This document shows, in pieces, positions 1 to 29,512 of a DNA stretch of 32,376 nt (position 1 is its first letter; every line of letters begins with the position of its first letter). Under the pieces are notes generated by a model that saw only the letters and a list, made by a program, of their open reading frames with translations, did not search any database and had not been told where the DNA came from. The stretch is from a bacterium (GTDB taxonomy: Bacteria > Patescibacteriota > Minisyncoccia > Phycocordibacterales > Phycocordibacteraceae), in assembly GCA_021813965.1 (NCBI GenBank), contig JAKAJB010000002.1, forward strand, positions 1 to 32,376. The letters are read 5' to 3'. A program made the position numbers and the translations under genes.

Positions 1-88
1 GCACCGTATCCACGGCGAAAGCGTACGAGGCGAGGACACCTTAAGTCCCTGAAGAAACTGGCGAATCGCGCATGAGAAGATTTCTTCC

Positions 89-112
89 GGCCTGTCCTTG
101 GATAGGCCTTTC
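89..112 (+). terminator. putative intrinsic terminator upstream of truncated rnhA copy
   Basis: GGCCTGTCC-TT-GGATAGGCC (one G.T pair) followed by TTTCATTT. Confidence 0.45.
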
Positions 113-130
113 ATTTGCCATACTGCGCGC

Positions 131-214
131 ATGCATTTCACCATCCATACCGACGGGGGCTCAAGAGGGAACCCGGGGCCGGCACCTCATTGCTCTTGTG
201 GCGGTATTTGCTAA
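131..214 (+). pseudogene. truncated duplicate of the rnhA 5' end (27 codons, MHFTIHTDGGSRGNPGPAPHCSCGGIC*)
   Basis: Positions 120-180 are identical to 704-764 (61 bp), which span the -10 region and first codons of rnhA; the frame then diverges and stops at 212-214. Confidence 0.85.
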
Positions 215-268
215 AGTCTGACCGGAAGTTTTACCGCAGCTCAACATCACACTACTAAGGGGGTCTTT

Positions 269-652
269 GTGAAAATCAGAACACTTCTGTGGCTCAAGAA
301 GCATGACATTCGGCTCTTCGGTATTCCGCTGGAACAATTCCAAGAGCGCACCTTTCTCCGGTACATCGCCCCGGCGCGACTGCGCTTACAACTACGGCTC
401 GCTCGGATCGAAATGCGCTTCAACCACGGACACCCGGTGTACTCGTCTCATCCGTGGCTTCAGGTAGATACAGCCGCAGCAAGATATCTGAACGAGAACG
501 AATACTTCCAGTATCACAAACATCGCCACCGTCTTATCAAACGCGCGACACTCCAAGAGCAGGGGTACGACGTATGCAAGCGATTGCGCGCGAAGCCCGG
601 ATGGCTCCGCTTCTCGCGGCCGCTACGATCCGACAAGCACACGGGGTGGTGA
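269..652 (+). CDS. hypothetical protein (127 aa), cargo between duplicated rnhA starts
   Basis: ORF with GTG start, Shine-Dalgarno-like AAGGGGG at 257-263, intrinsic terminator just downstream; no family recognised. Confidence 0.55.
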   Translation: MKIRTLLWLKKHDIRLFGIPLEQFQERTFLRYIAPARLRLQLRLARIEMRFNHGHPVYSSHPWLQVDTAAARYLNENEYFQYHKHRHRLIKRATLQEQGYDVCKRLRAKPGWLRFSRPLRSDKHTGW

Positions 653-668
653 ATCGGGATTTGATTTT

Positions 669-694
669 GCTCGTCCTTCGGGACGAGCTTTTTC
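669..694 (+). terminator. intrinsic terminator
   Basis: GCTCGTCC-TTCG-GGACGAGC followed by TTTTTTC. Confidence 0.85.
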
Positions 695-702
695 TTTGTT
701 GG

Positions 703-708
703 TATACT
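703..708 (+). promoter_or_regulatory. -10 element TATACT 6 nt upstream of rnhA ATG (leaderless-type)
   Basis: TATACT-GCGCGC-ATG. Confidence 0.6.
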
Positions 709-714
709 GCGCGC

Positions 715-1143
715 ATGCATTTCACCATCCATACCGACGGGGGCTCAAGAGGGAACCCGGGGCCTGCCGGCTCAGGCGCGATGATCCGCGACCATCTGGG
801 GAACGCGGTCGCGAGCGTGTCACAATTCCTCGGCATTCGCACCAACAATTACGCCGAATACGAAGCGGTCATCCTCGCATTCGAAATGCTCGCGAAACAT
901 GTCGGGGAGAAGAGAGTCGGCGCGACCGACGTCGAAGTGAAGATGGACAGCGAGCTCATCGTGAAGCAGATGAAGGGAGTATATAAAGTGAAGCACCCGA
1001 CTATGAAAGCCCAGTTCGCGCGAGTCATGAAAGCGAAAGAGGCATTCAAAGAAGTGTCCTTCACGCACGTCCCGCGCGCGCAGAACGCCGACGCCGACGC
1101 CCTCGCGAACGAAGCGATGGATCGCGGTTCGAATCCTAAGTAG
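715..1143 (+). CDS. rnhA: ribonuclease HI family protein
   Basis: MHFTIHTDGGSRGNPGPAGSGAMI...NNYAEYEAV...MDSELIVKQ...ADALANEAMD, RNase HI motifs. Confidence 0.9.
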   Translation: MHFTIHTDGGSRGNPGPAGSGAMIRDHLGNAVASVSQFLGIRTNNYAEYEAVILAFEMLAKHVGEKRVGATDVEVKMDSELIVKQMKGVYKVKHPTMKAQFARVMKAKEAFKEVSFTHVPRAQNADADALANEAMDRGSNPK

Positions 1144-1200
1144 CCAGCCAGTTTTAGATGGATTCGGAGTCCGGCTGATTTCTTTTGCTACGATTTCTGC

Positions 1201-1281
1201 ATGGGTGCACTCATTGCCGTAACGACAGGATTCGCGAGCAGGGTTGGACTCCGCTCGCTTTTTGTCTTTTGTCGTGTATAG
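1201..1281 (+). pseudogene. truncated duplicate of the comEC 5' end (26 codons, MGALIAVTTGFASRVGLRSLFVFCRV*)
   Basis: 1201-1239 matches 1909-1947 with one mismatch; similarity continues at the same offset (708 bp) through 1262. Confidence 0.85.
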
Positions 1282-1376
1282 TTTATATGTGCCTGTGGGG
1301 CGTCAGCCCTATTTCGGCTAATACATAAGCCGAAGGCAGGCATATCAAAACCACCGACCTCGCGTCGGTGTTTTTG
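1277..1376 (+). ncRNA. candidate small structured RNA with promoter and intrinsic terminator
   Basis: -10-like TATAGT (1277-1282); nested stems TGCCTG/CAGGCA, GGGC/GCCC, TTCGGCT/AGCCGAA; terminator CACCGAC-CTCGC-GTCGGTG-TTTTT. Confidence 0.5.
1352..1376 (+). terminator. intrinsic terminator (probably bidirectional)
   Basis: CACCGAC(1352-1358)/GTCGGTG(1364-1370) with a T-tract on the + side and TGGTTTT on the - side. Confidence 0.8.
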
Positions 1377-1379
1377 CTT

Positions 1380-1888
1380 TTAGTCATCCTCCGGGTTGCC
1401 CTTCATCGTGCTGTACAGTTTCATGTCGCGATACTTGTTCGTAGTCCATGCTGGCACGACGCTCCAGAAATGAAGCTGCCCGTTGTCGCCGATCTTCCGC
1501 AAGATCACTTTTATCTTGCGCCCGTCGATGATGGCGATGATGCCCCAATATTTCACCGGCTTACTCTTCCGTACTTTCTTCTTGAAGCTTTTCACTTCGA
1601 ATTCCTTGAGCGTCACTTCGTATTCCTGATATGTCGTAGAAAGCTAGAAAGCTCCGTGAGCCTGATCGCTATCGGCAGAAGCTTGAAGCGCAGTATCTGC
1701 GACGAGCGTTCACGCTCGCTTCGCGGACCCTTGAAAATCACGTGATTGAACCCTTCTGCGGTGAAATGTACGAGCTCGCCAAGCGCCGGGGAGTGGACCG
1801 GTCGCGTGCCGATATAAAACTTCTGCGCATCTTCGCGGAGCTTCTCGTAGTTGGAAACATCTTCCATATCGAAAAAGTGTACACCCAT
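1380..1888 (-). pseudogene. nuclease-like protein (resembles the PBECR / barnase-EndoU-ColicinE5-RelE-like families seen in CPR), frameshifted
   Basis: Two ORFs (1613..1918 and 1380..1616, minus) read as one ~160-aa protein MGVHFFDMEDVSNYEKLREDAQKFY...HFTAEGFNHVIFKG...LPIAIRLTELS/STTYQEYEVTLKEF...YWGIIAIIDGRKIKVILRKIG...HFWSVVPAW...TMKGNPEDD if one copy of an 8-bp tandem repeat is removed; family name is from memory. Confidence 0.6.
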
Positions 1889-1908
1889 CCTTGCGCTACC
1901 ATATACGG

Positions 1909-3528
1909 ATGGGTGCACTCCTTGCCGTAACGACAGGATTCGCGAGCGGGATATTTTTCCGCTCGCTTTTTCATTTCGGGTGGGAACCGGTGGCGTTTAC
2001 GGGATTGCTCGCCGCGCTTCTGGGCGCGGCGGCGTTTATGAAGCCGCGCCGAGTGTACTCGCTCGGCGTGGTGTTCTTTGTGCTCGTCGCCTTCGGGATG
2101 CTGCGCGCAGCAGATGCTGACGCGCCGCTCCCCGACGCCTTCGCGAGCCAAGTGCGGCATCGCGTGTCGTACGACGGGACGGTCGTTGCCGACCCTGATG
2201 TGCGCGATGCCAATCAGCGCGTCGAGATACGTGTCACGAGCGGCGCCGACACGACGACGGTGCTCGCGGTCGCGCCGCGCTACCCGAGCGTCGCAGTGGG
2301 GGATTCGGTGCACGTGTCTGGGACGCTCGAAGTCCCGCAGCCGTTCGCGGGCGACAACGGTCGCGTCTTCCGCTACGACAAATACCTCGAGCGCGACGGC
2401 GTGCGTTTCATACTCAACTTCGCCTATCTGCGCGTGACGCAGAGCGCGCCGTGGTATTCGCCGCCGGCGGCACTCGCGCGCATGAAGCACGCATTCCTCG
2501 ACGGTCTCGCCGCGACGCTTCCCGAACCGTACGCGAGCTTGGCGGGCGGCGTGGTGATAGGAGGGAAGACCGGTCTCGGGAAGGACCTACAGGACGCTTT
2601 CACGCGGAGCGGGCTCGTGCAGATCATCGTCCTCTCCGGCTACAACGTGATGGTCGTCGCCGAGTGGGTCATGGCGGCGCTCGCGTATATCAAACTCTCC
2701 AAGCGGTGGAGCTCGGTGGCAGGAGCGATTGCCATCCTCATCTTCGTCGGCATCGCGGGAGCCTCGGCCACGGCGCTGCGCGCCATGCTCATGGCATTCA
2801 TCGCGCTCTACGCGCGCGCGACCGGGCGCACCTACGCGGCGAGCCGCGCGCTCCTCGCCGCCGTATTCCTTATGCTCCTGTGGAACCCGCTCTACCTCGC
2901 ATACGACCCGGGCTTCGGGCTCTCGGTCGCCGCGACTGCCGGGCTCATCTGGCTCGCGCCAAATATAGAAAGACTGCTCGAAAACGTATCTTTGTGGAGG
3001 CGTATCAAAAAGCCCTCAGATGCGCGACGCGGGGAAGTGATTCCTGTAGGCGTACTACAAGGTACGACGGAAGGAATCACGGGGCCCCGCAACAAAGCAG
3101 ATGGGGCTTTGGGGTATGCCTCGTTCTGGAAGAATGCGATTGCGACAACCCTCGCTGCGCAGATCGCCGTTCTGCCACTCCTCCTCTACGACACCGGCAA
3201 CCTCTCGCTCGTCGCGATACCCGCGAACCTCATCACGATGCCGGTGGTGCCGGCCGCGATGGGGCTGTCTGCGCTCGCCGGGTTCGCTGGGATGCTCTTC
3301 GGCTCTTTCGCGCCGCTCTTCGCCATCGTGCTCGCGTCACCCGCCTACCTCGCGAACGCCTACCTTATATATGTCGCGCAAAAGGCCGCCGAACTTCCGC
3401 TCGCGGCCTTCACGCTTCCGTCATTCCCGTTCTGGCTCGTGCTTCTCGCTTATGCGGCGCTCATCGCAGCCGCGAAGCGCTTCTCGACGACCGGCCAGTT
3501 GAGGTTGGCGAGGAACGCTTCGACGTAA
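1909..3528 (+). CDS. comEC: ComEC/Rec2-family competence membrane protein (without C-terminal MBL domain)
   Basis: SGLVQIIVLSGYNVMVVAEW, ATALRAMLMAFIALYARATGR, multiple TM segments; -10-like TACCAT 6 nt before ATG. Confidence 0.85.
   Translation: MGALLAVTTGFASGIFFRSLFHFGWEPVAFTGLLAALLGAAAFMKPRRVYSLGVVFFVLVAFGMLRAADADAPLPDAFASQVRHRVSYDGTVVADPDVRDANQRVEIRVTSGADTTTVLAVAPRYPSVAVGDSVHVSGTLEVPQPFAGDNGRVFRYDKYLERDGVRFILNFAYLRVTQSAPWYSPPAALARMKHAFLDGLAATLPEPYASLAGGVVIGGKTGLGKDLQDAFTRSGLVQIIVLSGYNVMVVAEWVMAALAYIKLSKRWSSVAGAIAILIFVGIAGASATALRAMLMAFIALYARATGRTYAASRALLAAVFLMLLWNPLYLAYDPGFGLSVAATAGLIWLAPNIERLLENVSLWRRIKKPSDARRGEVIPVGVLQGTTEGITGPRNKADGALGYASFWKNAIATTLAAQIAVLPLLLYDTGNLSLVAIPANLITMPVVPAAMGLSALAGFAGMLFGSFAPLFAIVLASPAYLANAYLIYVAQKAAELPLAAFTLPSFPFWLVLLAYAALIAAAKRFSTTGQLRLARNAST
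3009..3110. repeat. in-frame interrupted palindrome inside comEC
   Basis: AAAGCCC(3009-3015)/GGGCTTT(3104-3110); GCGGGG(3029-3034)/CCCCGC(3085-3090); GTGATTCC(3037-3044)/GGAATCAC(3073-3080); CGTAC(3051-3055)/GTACG(3062-3066); span 102 bp = 34 codons. Confidence 0.6.
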
Positions 3529-4052
3529 TTCTTCTTCTCCGCCGGGACATAGTCCACCATGAAAGCGTGCTCCCAGAGATCGAGCGCGAGTACGATAGGG
3601 AGGCCGGCGAGCTGACCGAGCTCGTGATCATTCACGAACACGGTATGGAGCGTCTTCGCAGTAGGGTCCGCATAGACGATGACCCAGCCGATGCCGCGGC
3701 TGCCGGCGACTTCCTTTATATGTGCGATGAAGTTTTCGGCGCTGCCGTACTTAGCTTCAGCCGCCTGCGCGAGCGAGCTGCCCGCGTCGGGGGCCTGCGC
3801 GGCGCCCTCGAGCTGTTCAAAATAATATTCGTGCATACGCATGCCGTCGAACTCGAAGCCGAAGCGGCGGCGAAGCTCGTTGATGAGGTAGGCGTTGCCC
3901 TCGGCGTCAGCCGCCTTGAGCGCCTGGATCTTCTCCATGATGAGGTTCACGTGCTTCACGTAGCCTTCATAGAGGCCGAGATGCACTTTGATCTGCTTCT
4001 CCGAGAGCCCTTCGAGCACCGGCAGGTTGAATGTTTTTGTTGGGTACGTCAT
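3450..4052 (-). CDS. sodB: superoxide dismutase (Fe/Mn family)
   Basis: KTFNLPVLEGLSEKQIKVHL...MRMHEYYFEQL...DLWEHAFMVDYVPAEKKNYVEAFL. Confidence 0.9.
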   Translation of the reverse strand: MTYPTKTFNLPVLEGLSEKQIKVHLGLYEGYVKHVNLIMEKIQALKAADAEGNAYLINELRRRFGFEFDGMRMHEYYFEQLEGAAQAPDAGSSLAQAAEAKYGSAENFIAHIKEVAGSRGIGWVIVYADPTAKTLHTVFVNDHELGQLAGLPIVLALDLWEHAFMVDYVPAEKKNYVEAFLANLNWPVVEKRFAAAMSAA

Positions 4053-4070: not shown

Positions 4071-4559
4071 ATGCCGCGACCTTTCTCAGCGGGATTCTAC
4101 ATCATCCTACTTTGCGGCCTCATCATCGCAAATATCGCTGTATATAGGGCCATGCTCGCGCCGCAGGTCCTCACCATGACCGTCTTCGACGTGGGGAAGG
4201 GCGACGCCGCGCTCGTGCACTCGCCCCGGGGACGGACGCTCCTCATCGACACCGGCCCGGATGCGAGCATCCTGCGGGCGCTCGGCGGCGCACTGCAGGA
4301 ATGGGACCGCACGATCGACGCGCTCGTCCTCACCGGCACCAAGGCCGCCTCCGTCGGCGGACTCTCAGATGTCGCTCTCCGCTATCACACACCGGCACCC
4401 GTGCGCTTCGGCGGCAAAGACATTCCCTACGGGACGACCGTCGCTTTCGATGCCGATGTTTCGATAACCGTCATCTCGCCCGGCACATTCGATGTCTCGT
4501 ATGGGACGACTCAGCTATCCGTCTCCTCCTCGACACCGCCCGGAACCTATCCGAAATGA
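4071..4559 (+). CDS. ComEC-type metallo-beta-lactamase-like domain protein, short, degenerate active site
   Basis: TMTVFDVGKGDAALVHSPRGRTLLIDTGPD matches ComEC MBL start; canonical THxHxDH replaced by LTGTKAASVGG. Confidence 0.7.
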   Translation: MPRPFSAGFYIILLCGLIIANIAVYRAMLAPQVLTMTVFDVGKGDAALVHSPRGRTLLIDTGPDASILRALGGALQEWDRTIDALVLTGTKAASVGGLSDVALRYHTPAPVRFGGKDIPYGTTVAFDADVSITVISPGTFDVSYGTTQLSVSSSTPPGTYPK

Positions 4560-16419: not shown

Positions 16420-18579
16420 TTATCCTGCGCTTTGTGGTGTTGAAAGGGGGACCGGAAGCATCACACCTCCTTGGAAGAGTTCCGGATGGGAAGCATACCA
16501 AGAGTTGATCCCATACTCCCAATACGGGAATTGAGGGTCTTGAGCAGGATTTGAAGGTGCCGGACCTCGCGGATTATTCTTGTCAGTCCAATACAGAAGC
16601 GAATGCGGCTGGATGATCCCTTGAGCGTCAGGAATACGCCAATTCCCTTGAAGCATAGGAGGGACGGTCGCCGGTATTGCATCGGGTTCTCCGAAATATG
16701 CCTTCGGATATTTCGAGAGCGCATATGCCATGGCGTCATGCCACATCGGCGCAGCTATGAATCCGGCGATAGACTTCACCATCGGCGAATTATCGTTATT
16801 TCCGGCCCATACGCCTATAGCGATGGAGGGGGTATAGCCGACGACCCACGCGTCACGCGTATCATCGGTGGTACCGGTCTTCACTGCAACGTCGTATCCG
16901 GGGAATGAAAGAGGCGAGTCGAGGGAATATTCCGGGACGCGGGCGGGAGCATCGGAAAGCATAGCGGAGATATCGCGTGCGATATTTGCCGGGAGTACTC
17001 GCGTCGGCTGGGATGCGTAGCTTTGCAGCACGTGCCCTTGCATATCATCGACCTCAAGCAGGCCGGTCGGCGTATTTTTCACCCCATCATCAGCGAAAGC
17101 GGCGTACGCGCCGGTAAGGTCGAGAAGGCGCACGTCACCGCCGCCGAGCACGATGGTGAGGCCGTACTGAGCCGCATCACCGAGCGAAGTGAGGCCGAAC
17201 GATTTCGCAAGATTTATCACATTCGTCACACCGACCAGATACACTACCTTAAGAGCGGGGATGTTGATCGACTGGGCGAGCGCGGTTTCGAATGTCATCG
17301 GTCCGCGGAAGGTGTTGTCATAATCGGTCGGTGCATAGCATGGGGCGGTATTGTTGTTTATATCTTCCGGCTTGCAGGCGGTCGAAAACTGCGTCGGGGT
17401 ATCGAAGACGACGGTGTCCCGGGTGTACCCGTCTTCGAGAGCGAGAGAATACGCGAACGGCTTCATGGTCGATCCCGGCTGGCGCAAAGCTAGAGCGGCG
17501 TTATATTGCCCGTCGATACTCGTGTCGAAGAAATCACGCGAACCGACCATAGCGAGAATCTGTCCGGTCGAAGGATCGATCGCAGTAAGAGCGTCGTTGG
17601 AGGCGTTGAAATCTTTTGCATTCTTAAGCGCGTAGCTATTCAATATTGATTCCGCCTTCACTTGCAAATCCGCATCGAGCGTCGTGGTGACTTTCAATCC
17701 GGAAGTGAGAGCCTTCGGTCCATACGTCGCCTCAAGCTGGTTCAGGATGTAGAAGACGAAGTGCGGGGCGATGATGGCATTGCGACCCCCTGCAGGAGCG
17801 AAGGATACTTTTTCAGCTTTCGCGCTCGCATACACAGCATCGCTGATGAAGCCGAGCGTGTGCATCCGATCAAGGACGAGGTCTTTCCTGGTATCCAACT
17901 CCGCGCGGTGCGTGCCGTAGGGAGAATAATAGGATGGGGCCTGGATCATTGCGGCGAGGTAGGCCGATTGTGCGACTGAGAGGTCTTTTGCAGGGATGCC
18001 GAAATAAGACTCAGAAGCGGCCTCGATGCCGTAGAGCGTGCCGCCGTACGGGATGTTATTGAGGTACGCCTCGAGAATCTGGTCTTTCGAGTAAACCTGC
18101 TCGAGCTTGATAGCCAGCATCCATTCATGGATCTTCCGGACGATACTTTTTTCGTTCGTGAGAAGCGTGTTCTTCACGACTTGCTGGGTGATGGTAGAAC
18201 CGCCTTGCGCGAGCGCGCCGCCGAGTGCGTCCACGATCATCGCGCGGATGATCGACGTGAAGCGCACCCCGCCGTGTTCGTAGAAACTCGAATCCTCTAT
18301 CGCGATAGCCGCTTGTATAGCGTTGGGGGATATGGCAGAGAGGGGAACGATGTCGCGTTTCGCGTCGCGATTATAATCATAAAGGAGGACCTGTCCGGTG
18401 CGGTCGTAGATTTTCGTCGATTGGTCGACTTGGCGAGAGGCGAATGAGCTGATATCCGGTATCGGCGCGAGCGTGACGGCTATGAGGATCCCTCCGACGG
18501 CGATGAAAGCGATGCCGGCGAGAACGAGGATAGCCGCAATAATCGTGTGTCGCCACGATATGGGGTGACGGGGGATCAT
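16420..18579 (-). CDS. penicillin-binding protein 1A (transglycosylase/transpeptidase)
   Basis: EDSSFYEHGGVRFTSIIRA, QGGSTITQQVVKN, RQPGSTMKPFAYSLAL, VKTGTTDDTRDAWVVGYTP. Confidence 0.95.
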   Translation of the reverse strand: MIPRHPISWRHTIIAAILVLAGIAFIAVGGILIAVTLAPIPDISSFASRQVDQSTKIYDRTGQVLLYDYNRDAKRDIVPLSAISPNAIQAAIAIEDSSFYEHGGVRFTSIIRAMIVDALGGALAQGGSTITQQVVKNTLLTNEKSIVRKIHEWMLAIKLEQVYSKDQILEAYLNNIPYGGTLYGIEAASESYFGIPAKDLSVAQSAYLAAMIQAPSYYSPYGTHRAELDTRKDLVLDRMHTLGFISDAVYASAKAEKVSFAPAGGRNAIIAPHFVFYILNQLEATYGPKALTSGLKVTTTLDADLQVKAESILNSYALKNAKDFNASNDALTAIDPSTGQILAMVGSRDFFDTSIDGQYNAALALRQPGSTMKPFAYSLALEDGYTRDTVVFDTPTQFSTACKPEDINNNTAPCYAPTDYDNTFRGPMTFETALAQSINIPALKVVYLVGVTNVINLAKSFGLTSLGDAAQYGLTIVLGGGDVRLLDLTGAYAAFADDGVKNTPTGLLEVDDMQGHVLQSYASQPTRVLPANIARDISAMLSDAPARVPEYSLDSPLSFPGYDVAVKTGTTDDTRDAWVVGYTPSIAIGVWAGNNDNSPMVKSIAGFIAAPMWHDAMAYALSKYPKAYFGEPDAIPATVPPMLQGNWRIPDAQGIIQPHSLLYWTDKNNPRGPAPSNPAQDPQFPYWEYGINSWYASHPELFQGGVMLPVPLSTPQSAG

Positions 18580-18595
18580 GGTGCGTATGCTAACA

Positions 18596-18627
18596 TGCGC
18601 GACCCCGCCCTAGGGCGGGGTCGCGCA
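18596..18627. repeat. perfect 32-bp palindrome between PBP and microprotein gene
   Basis: TGCGCGACCCCGCCCTAGGGCGGGGTCGCGCA. Confidence 0.95.
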
Positions 18628-18645
18628 CGGTACGACGATCTGCGT

Positions 18646-18798
18646 TCAGTAGTCCGTTTCGGCTTCTGCGCCGTCCTCATGGAATCCCATAGCGAACGGG
18701 TCTTCCTCTTCATCCTCCTCGTCATCACCTCCCATCAAGAGAGTATCCTCGTCATCAAGCTTTCCTACAAGCTCCTCATCAAGTTCATCATCATTCAT
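18646..18798 (-). CDS. highly acidic 50-aa microprotein (absent from ORF track)
   Basis: MNDDELDEELVGKLDDEDTLLMGGDDEEDEEEDPFAMGFHEDGAEAETDY; AT-rich upstream region TATACATATATAA. Confidence 0.65.
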   Translation of the reverse strand: MNDDELDEELVGKLDDEDTLLMGGDDEEDEEEDPFAMGFHEDGAEAETDY

Positions 18799-27645: not shown

Positions 27646-27718
27646 GCGCCCGTAGCTCAGTCGGTAGAGCAGCTCGCTTTTAACGAGAAGGTCGCAGGAT
27701 CGAAGCCTGCCGGGCGCA
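27646..27718 (+). tRNA. tRNA-Lys (anticodon TTT)
   Basis: GCGCCCG acceptor / CGGGCGC, D-arm GCTCAGTCGGTAGAGC, anticodon loop CTTTTAA, T-arm GCAGGATCGAAGCCTGC; no encoded CCA. Confidence 0.92.
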
Positions 27719-27719
27719 C

Positions 27720-28553
27720 ATGGAAACTTCTTTCAGAGAGCAGTGTATAGCCTTGCGAAAGGAGGGGTACAGCATCGTTGAAATAATGGCAGTAACTGGA
27801 AAAGCGAAGTCTTCTATCCATACGCATATAAGGAATATTCCCCTGAGCGAGGAGCGTTTAAAAGAGATTAAGAAAGCTTCCGGGGAGCGGGTTCGAAAAT
27901 TTGCATTAGCTCGAAAGGGGAAAAGTAAACGAGAGTTCAGAGCTTTTGATGAGTGGTCTGCAAACACGGTGCTCTTTATCGCGCACCTACTTTTCGATGG
28001 GGAGATAACGCGGACGAGATGTGCCTACAACAATCGCAATGTAGCGCTCATCGGACGTGTTGAGCGGCTCATGCGCGAATGGTATGACTTCGAACCGAGC
28101 CGGTACTACAACAAAATGACCGGGGTCTCGCGCATCACGTACGGTAACGTGGCTTTGGGCTCCTACCTAAAGATGAAATCCGGAGAATTGCTGCGGGATA
28201 TAAGGAAAATGCCGCCTGATCTCGAACGCGAATTCATTCGAGCCTTTTTTGATGACGAGGGGTGTATGGACTACCGACCAGAAGAAAATAGACGCAGCAT
28301 TCGAGGATATCAGAAAGATGTACGGATTCTTGAGATAGTAAAGTCGCTTCTGGCAGATTTCGATATTGCGGCGCGGATCGTGTTCCCGAACGAAGTCGTA
28401 ATCGTTGGCAAGGAGAATCTGATGAAATTTGAACGAGAGATTAATTTCTCACCGGGCGTATATATGAATGGGAACCGCTCGAACAGCCGGTGGAAGAAAC
28501 ATGTGGAGAAAAGAGAATTACTAAAACAAGCGATCGTTTCATTCAAAAACTAA
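27720..28553 (+). CDS. LAGLIDADG-type homing endonuclease-like protein with N-terminal HTH-like region
   Basis: IVEIMAVTGKAKSSIHTHIRNI (HTH-like); IAHLLFDGEIT and FIRAFFDDEGCM as two degenerate LAGLIDADG motifs; starts 1 nt after tRNA discriminator +1. Confidence 0.75.
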   Translation: METSFREQCIALRKEGYSIVEIMAVTGKAKSSIHTHIRNIPLSEERLKEIKKASGERVRKFALARKGKSKREFRAFDEWSANTVLFIAHLLFDGEITRTRCAYNNRNVALIGRVERLMREWYDFEPSRYYNKMTGVSRITYGNVALGSYLKMKSGELLRDIRKMPPDLEREFIRAFFDDEGCMDYRPEENRRSIRGYQKDVRILEIVKSLLADFDIAARIVFPNEVVIVGKENLMKFEREINFSPGVYMNGNRSNSRWKKHVEKRELLKQAIVSFKN

Positions 28554-29512
28554 TAGCTGAACGCGTCAACCGTCTTGCCGGTCGCATCAAGCAGCTTCAC
28601 GACTTCGTGTTGCGTTCGCCACATCGAACTGCTCCTGCCGAGATAGACATGCCACGTGTCCCCCTTGAAATCAGAGTCGCCTCGGTGCGCGTTAACGCAG
28701 CCGTTGTAATTGAGATATTTCACGAGGAAACTCTGGCATGCGCCCGAGACGGTCGTCGGCGGAGTGAGCGCGGCTTGGCAGCGCGAGAGCGTGTTCACAT
28801 AATCGATGCACGACGCGTCGCGGATGTAATCGGCGCCGTAAAAGGAAGAGAGCTCCGTGGACGGAGAGGGGCAGTTGAGCGGCAGGGACGGATTGAAATC
28901 CTGGAAGCTGCTGAAATAGCCGATGCATTTATTCTCTCGGAACGAAGCGCCGATGGGGGACTGCCCGGACGCGATGATCGCCTGCTGCCCGGCGGTAAGC
29001 ACGATGTCCTGCGCTGCGTTCACGACGCCGGACGTCGGCGTCTCCGTGCCCTTCGGTATGGTCATGGAATTGCCGGTCGCCTCGCTCTCAAGCACCCACC
29101 CGGAGATATCGACCGGAACGCTCGCGTTCTGCGCCACGCGCAGGTTGATATATTCATTTCTCGGGTCAGCCGAAGCTGCGCCTGAGACGGAGTGGTCCAT
29201 CGACACGATGCCGTAGTACGGTGAAAGGTCGCCGAATGTCGTCCCGCCGATGAGCGGCGTATTCGGGGTGCCGCTGCTGCCTATGGAACCGCCGCCGGCA
29301 GAGCTTCCCGGGAGCTCCGTGTTGCTTCCGCCGCCGATACCGAAGGGCGAGCGCGGGAGGGAAAGGTAGGTGCCGCCGCCGAGCTGGCCCGGCAGGGCGA
29401 GCCGCGGCCCGGAGAAGGCTATCGGGTGCACCGGTCCGCCCGTGGCGATCCAGATGAGGAAAATGAAGACGAACACGCCTATGAAAAACCATGAATCATG
29501 CATGTCGCTCAT
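28550..29512 (-). CDS. membrane-anchored lamin-tail-domain-like protein
   Basis: N-terminal TM; EYINLRVAQNASVPVDISGWVLESEATGNSMTIPKGTE...DIVLTAGQQAII...HEVVKLLDATGKTVDAFSY. Confidence 0.65.
   Translation of the reverse strand: MSDMHDSWFFIGVFVFIFLIWIATGGPVHPIAFSGPRLALPGQLGGGTYLSLPRSPFGIGGGSNTELPGSSAGGGSIGSSGTPNTPLIGGTTFGDLSPYYGIVSMDHSVSGAASADPRNEYINLRVAQNASVPVDISGWVLESEATGNSMTIPKGTETPTSGVVNAAQDIVLTAGQQAIIASGQSPIGASFRENKCIGYFSSFQDFNPSLPLNCPSPSTELSSFYGADYIRDASCIDYVNTLSRCQAALTPPTTVSGACQSFLVKYLNYNGCVNAHRGDSDFKGDTWHVYLGRSSSMWRTQHEVVKLLDATGKTVDAFSY

Follow-up and report, generated by a model that had tools for sequence, protein, structure and literature searches.

Gene content at the start of the window

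The window analysed here is the entire 32,376-bp contig C16 of a metagenome-assembled genome (565 kb in 60 contigs; G000) of an ultra-small bacterium of the Candidatus Kaiserbacteria lineage within the Patescibacteria. Its first kilobases contain the end of a putative ORF X, an ORF Y, and the genes rnhA and comEC, together with partial copies of the starts of both latter genes (Table 1). Besides comEC, the genome also encodes dprA and recA. The neighbouring contig C57 ends inside recJ, and the 3' part of this gene (~270 codons) is absent from the assembly between the end of C57 and the start of C16, possibly owing to allele differences at this position. Towards the other end of the window, a tRNA-Lys gene (27646-27719) is immediately followed by a free-standing ORF with a LAGLIDADG_3 domain (27720-28553, E 4.5e-8), a candidate homing-endonuclease-like gene, and the ORF at 28553-29512 weakly matches the lamin-tail domain (LTD), its E of 3e-7 narrowly missing the curated cut-off.

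Table 1. Features of the recJ-rnhA-comEC region in the window
Feature	Position	Strand	Basis
Putative ORF X, 3' end (terminating in APYPRRKRTRRGHLKSLKKLANRA and a stop), cut by the contig start	1..75	+	Sequence reading
Terminator-like hairpin and T-rich tail behind ORF X	89..116	+	Sequence; folds as 8-bp stem
Copy 1, non-functional repeat of the rnhA promoter -10/start region plus first ~17 codons	120..183	+	Exact repeat of 704-764
Novel junction, rnhA' joined to ORF Y upstream region	180..187	+	Y-unit homology to G081 starts at 187; copies diverge after 180-183
ORF Y upstream region with SD-like AAGGGGG (257-263)	187..268	+	Homologous in sister species G081
ORF Y, 127 aa, GTG start	269..652	+	Relative in G081; predicted mostly helical, low confidence
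Intrinsic-terminator-like hairpin and T-run of ORF Y	669..693	+	Sequence/fold; G081 has a counterpart upstream of rnhA
Copy 2, working start region of rnhA	704..764	+	Repeat comparison
rnhA (RNase HI), 142 aa	715..1143	+	Pfam RVT_3 3e-20, RNase_H 3e-11
Older dead duplicate of comEC start	1182..1263	+	82% to 1890-1971; SW 89 vs shuffle 23
Conserved hairpin element and terminator, part of unit inserted before comEC	1288..1377	+	Copies elsewhere; consensus fold
Frame-disrupted copy of ~159-aa ORF between comEC' and comEC	1380..1918	-	tblastn pieces, two frames
comEC, DNA-uptake channel gene	1909..3528	+	Pfam Competence 1.6e-43, DUF4131

The start of rnhA is present twice, as an exact direct repeat of 61 nt (120-180 and 704-764) with similarity reaching 115-183/699-767 at 96%. 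By chance, ~1e-28 exact 61-mer pairs would be expected in 32 kb, and the local-alignment (SW) score of 123 compares with a shuffle maximum of 25; the repeat described in the first-pass annotation is thus real. The recent origin proposed there also agrees with the data, as the same stretch differs by roughly 12-20% in other species, so that perfect identity fits a recent event. What copy 1 retains of rnhA is a dead fragment of 50 nt, preceded by the ORF X tail and its terminator; in translation, this copy runs into a mini-ORF of 27 codons (131-214). Orthologues of rnhA are found in 84 of 93 genomes of the genus. No relative of ORF X was found among these 93 genomes, and a donor allele of the order recJ-X-rnhA was not seen.

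A second duplication, of the comEC start, lies ~0.5 kb downstream of the rnhA-start repeat, and this scar is common to the window genome and genome G015 (L008/L075). The ~159-aa ORF that follows it is intact in G015 and others (LPD3 match with E 0.004, below the cut-off), and copies of the hairpin element that are 76-97% identical and share a three-stem consensus fold occur elsewhere in 10 of the 93 genus genomes. The RNA-like part of this region (window 1276-1918; L077-L087) spans ~55 nt, with a GCCTG..CAGGC closing stem, two hairpins, and a terminator, and adjoins the ~159-aa ORF at varied loci in ~10 Kaiserbacteria genomes. In pairs of close relatives, it is more conserved (91-97%) than the protein (72-87%), and the two could be a mobile RNA/protein pair. 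An Rfam search of window positions 1-4000 returned only noise and no match for the element.

ORF Y and the novel junction

ORF Y has a sole relative (41% identity), which is encoded in the sister genome G081 (JAJXUR010000003.1) at the same place, directly behind recJ and directly before rnhA (recJ-Y-rnhA). The Y unit aligns with G081 over its whole extent between window position 187 and the start of rnhA, SD region included, with 84% identity over positions 187-230 and 19 of 19 identical bases in the stretch adjoining rnhA (TTTCTTTGTTGGTATACTG). Substitutions between the two ORFs are distributed 54/43/73 by codon position, with a dN/dS of ~0.36. Taken together, the end-to-end alignment, the codon-position pattern, and the dN/dS indicate that ORF Y is a genuine, conserved but nearly orphan gene under purifying selection. 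The first-pass annotation had regarded the 127-aa ORF with its own SD and intrinsic terminator as a self-contained expression unit; all these parts are present, and they are kept end to end in the sister species along with the rnhA-proximal flank and a coding-type mode of evolution. It had also allowed for an ORF lacking both homologues and a coding signal, whereas the protein search it proposed recovered the G081 relative and the substitutions yield a dN/dS of 0.36. No match to Pfam or PADLOC families was obtained for ORF Y, including families of anti-phage defence or toxin-antitoxin genes, and the putAbiC match of the G081 relative has an E of only 0.17. Nothing convincing was found in plasmids, viral contigs, GTDB contigs, or 397 genomes of the order, and the AF2 model (pLDDT 65) is too weak for a fold search.

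In G081, the Y unit directly follows the end of recJ, whereas in the window it follows the rnhA fragment. As copy 1 stops at 180-183 and the homology of the Y unit begins at 187, the order in the window, as assembled, is X, rnhA fragment, Y, rnhA. Positions 181-221 were initially read as a true recJ 3' end, since they correspond to the recJ tail in G081. A comparison of recJ ends assigned this tail to the Y unit, leaving the window scar without a proven recJ fragment, unlike the scars of genome G087 described below. The window junction (180-187) was read from a single metagenome assembly, with the repeat beginning 119 nt into the contig.

Gene-end scars in related genomes

Across the genus, recJ, rnhA, and comEC are normally arranged gap-free, with spacers of 8-14 bp and then a 4-bp overlap. 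In many relatives with a gap-free recJ/rnhA junction, a TATAGT-like -10 box contains the recJ stop codon and the rnhA ATG follows after only a few bases, which suggests that the rnhA transcript is leaderless. Small unrelated accessory genes are found at the junctions of this operon in a third to half of the genomes. In one locus set, which includes some more distant relatives, 12 of 55 recJ-rnhA and 23 of 45 rnhA-comEC junctions are longer than 150 bp, and the inserts range from a few hundred to a few thousand bp. The inserted genes occur in either orientation and are unrelated to each other, encoding ASCH, CYTH, or tRNA-binding (tRNA_bind) domains or unknown proteins, and in related genomes both gaps hold unrelated ORFs or nothing.

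In ~7 genomes (G000, G015, G036/G028, G016, G087, G027, and G040), such inserts have gene remnants beside them, from the start of the gene downstream, the end of the gene upstream, or both. These partial edges of rnhA, comEC, or recJ score far above shuffled controls in local alignments. Starts of rnhA are left once in the window and twice in G087, and starts of comEC in the window (1182-1263), G015, G036/G028, G016, G087, and G040, while 3' ends of rnhA are found in G087, G027, and G040. The length and edges of the repeats vary by case (35, 50, and 65-80 nt; rnhA and comEC starts, recJ and rnhA ends). The most extensive array reads recJ-A-(rnhA'|recJ')-B-(rnhA'|recJ')-C-rnhA in G087 and continues rnhA-ASCH gene-rnhA 3' end-D-comEC'-E-comEC, with the ASCH ORF ending in a fused rnhA tail (NTDALANEAIDRGS). 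Its two rnhA'|recJ' scars have an identical breakpoint, so at least one of them arose by recombination of the first and not by a new illegitimate event. The motif CGGGGT near the join is common to the G087 scars and recJ, and the window join has no clear microhomology.

Direct repeats of comparable strength are rare in the 723 kb sampled around the loci, where only two places besides the operon contain them. Among inserts >150 bp, scars were found in 5 of 22 within the operon vs. none of 48 in flanking spacers (Fisher p ~0.002; 0.007 with the event common to G000 and G015 counted once), p-values that are only indicative because the sample is phylogenetically non-independent and both flanking spacers were chosen after seeing the table. 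Clusters of antisense shadow ORFs were disregarded in reading the gene-cluster tables. The other 17 of the 22 in-operon inserts have no detectable scar, for which we assume decay of unneeded sequence. In genome G006 (L049), small ORFs are separated by a perfect 45-bp repeat (17948-17992 and 18623-18667) that is internally dyad-symmetric. In G025 (L045), a 3.5-kb insert containing two larger ORFs lies between two copies (583-643 and 4088-4148) of the 3' end of a putative membrane-type gene.

Origin of the repeat

Across the relatives, the sequences are best described as scars of accessory-gene addition with stacked unrelated genes, rather than as copies of a single self-contained mobile unit. 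The earlier view that recombination between the repeats would cleanly excise the segment holds in part: by geometry, it would restore X-rnhA, but no feature points to a dedicated excisable element, with neither a recombinase nor a constant repeat or junction present. Hallmarks of transposons or IS elements are likewise missing: the unit is not bounded by inverted repeats of that type, ORF Y matches no family, and the duplications vary in length. Against an att-type integrative element, the 584-bp unit has no recombinase gene, and the edges vary between cases.

We consider it probable that the hypervariable slot between recJ and rnhA received an additive insertion, of which the repeat is the scar, and that two alternative accessory-gene alleles of the slot, X-rnhA and Y-rnhA, thereby came to lie in tandem (X-rnhA'|Y-rnhA). 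The anatomy of the locus, the orthologous position of Y in the sister species, and the repeated, independent occurrence of like scars in relatives are all seen at the level of sequence. With almost no spacer sequence in recJ-rnhA-comEC, both neighbours of an insertion can stay functional only if it copies a gene end; scars would thus be expected at these gap-free junctions and not in ordinary spacers. Incoming DNA with one slot allele may have entered the cell, with natural transformation as the likeliest route; one end would have paired homologously with rnhA or recJ and the other would have been joined illegitimately, leaving the old gene start as a dead fragment and the new start intact. 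Such homology-facilitated illegitimate recombination (HFIR) after DNA uptake would be the most likely route of stacking. In another Patescibacterium, transformation is known to depend on ComEC (PMC10633639); transformation-made tandem duplication is documented in pneumococcus (PMC3784515), and HFIR has been proposed for the stacked immunity genes of Vibrio arrays (PMC5361080). The window has the homologous end (the exact rnhA repeat) and the novel join (180-187) typical of HFIR, a geometry that also fits a duplication or a circle.

An intrachromosomal tandem duplication of Y and the rnhA start, followed by replacement of the first accessory gene by X via recombination, seems unlikely to us, even though an rnhA'|recJ' scar is exactly a tandem-duplication junction and amplification would give the common breakpoint of the G087 scars. 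The genes on either side of the scars are unrelated in every case read, so a duplication would always need an extra replacement. We give little credence to integration of a circularised cassette (Y plus the rnhA start) through one Campbell-type crossover at the start of rnhA, which would produce the same end structure, i.e. flanking direct repeats with new material between them, from a circle junction of the form rnhA'|Y or rnhA'|recJ', but for which no circle was seen, the 584-bp unit lacks a recombinase gene, and the cases lack a fixed junction.

That two strain variants were misjoined at a metagenome contig end is improbable. The repeat does lie 119 nt from the contig start, and C57 breaks inside recJ, the 3' part of which is missing; a k-mer misjoin would, however, fall inside the shared sequence, whereas the novel join at 180-187 lies outside it. 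The same architecture is also found twice in the independent assembly of G087, and the comEC scar is common to two species, G000 and G015. Attachment (att) sites are long identical direct repeats that regenerate their target gene, a pattern that the window repeats resemble, but a small site-specific element with the rnhA start as its attachment core and an integrase acting in trans is highly improbable, because the repeat length and edges differ between cases, against a fixed crossover, and no recombinase gene lies within the unit.

Under the favoured additive insertion, an existing scar could in turn allow ordinary recombination between the copies to remove or add a cassette, and the G087 array suggests that a scar, once formed, may be reused by homologous recombination. 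The presence of Y in both the window and G081, and of the comEC insert in both the window and G015, would be compatible with exchange by homologous recombination in the flanking genes. More speculatively, and with a low likelihood in our judgement, rnhA'|recJ' scars might serve as portable homology sites with which Kaiserbacteria build, swap, and lose accessory-gene arrays, within the very operon that encodes their DNA-uptake channel, by plain homologous recombination, in an integron-like manner without an integrase or attC.

Relation to known systems and implications

Integron gene cassettes are small units lined up between short repeats. The inserts described here are alike in this respect, but no integrase or attC was seen, and their repeats consist of pieces of the adjoining housekeeping genes. 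The minimal mobile elements of Neisseria (Saunders & Snyder 2002, cited in PMC2649163) are, like the inserts here, small accessory genes that vary between genomes in a slot between two conserved genes; they are presumably exchanged via recombination in the conserved flanks, without mobility genes. The Kaiserbacteria alleles differ in also being stacked, with partial gene copies between them, and in having their slot in gap-free operon junctions. The orphan-immunity arrays of the Vibrio cholerae T6SS share successive additive insertions at a conserved anchor and gene remnants, and are explained by HFIR (PMC5361080), whereas the Kaiserbacteria inserts are not tied to toxin/immunity pairs and consist of unrelated genes in a DNA-processing operon. 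In pneumococcal merodiploids, DNA uptake can similarly create tandem duplications, but these are large and involve IS-sized repeats (PMC3784515), in contrast to the sub-kb cassettes and gene-edge repeats of 35-80 nt in Kaiserbacteria. The principle is known, but the setting is apparently new: in the literature searched (open-licence papers only), no account was found of recurrent scars at gene ends in the patescibacterial comEC operon.

The scars represent sequence traces of gene gain without mobile-element machinery in bacteria with very small genomes, and a simple rule, that an insertion into a gap-free operon must copy a gene end, predicts where they appear. As the slot lies within the comEC operon, gene gain is physically linked to the DNA-uptake system that may cause it.
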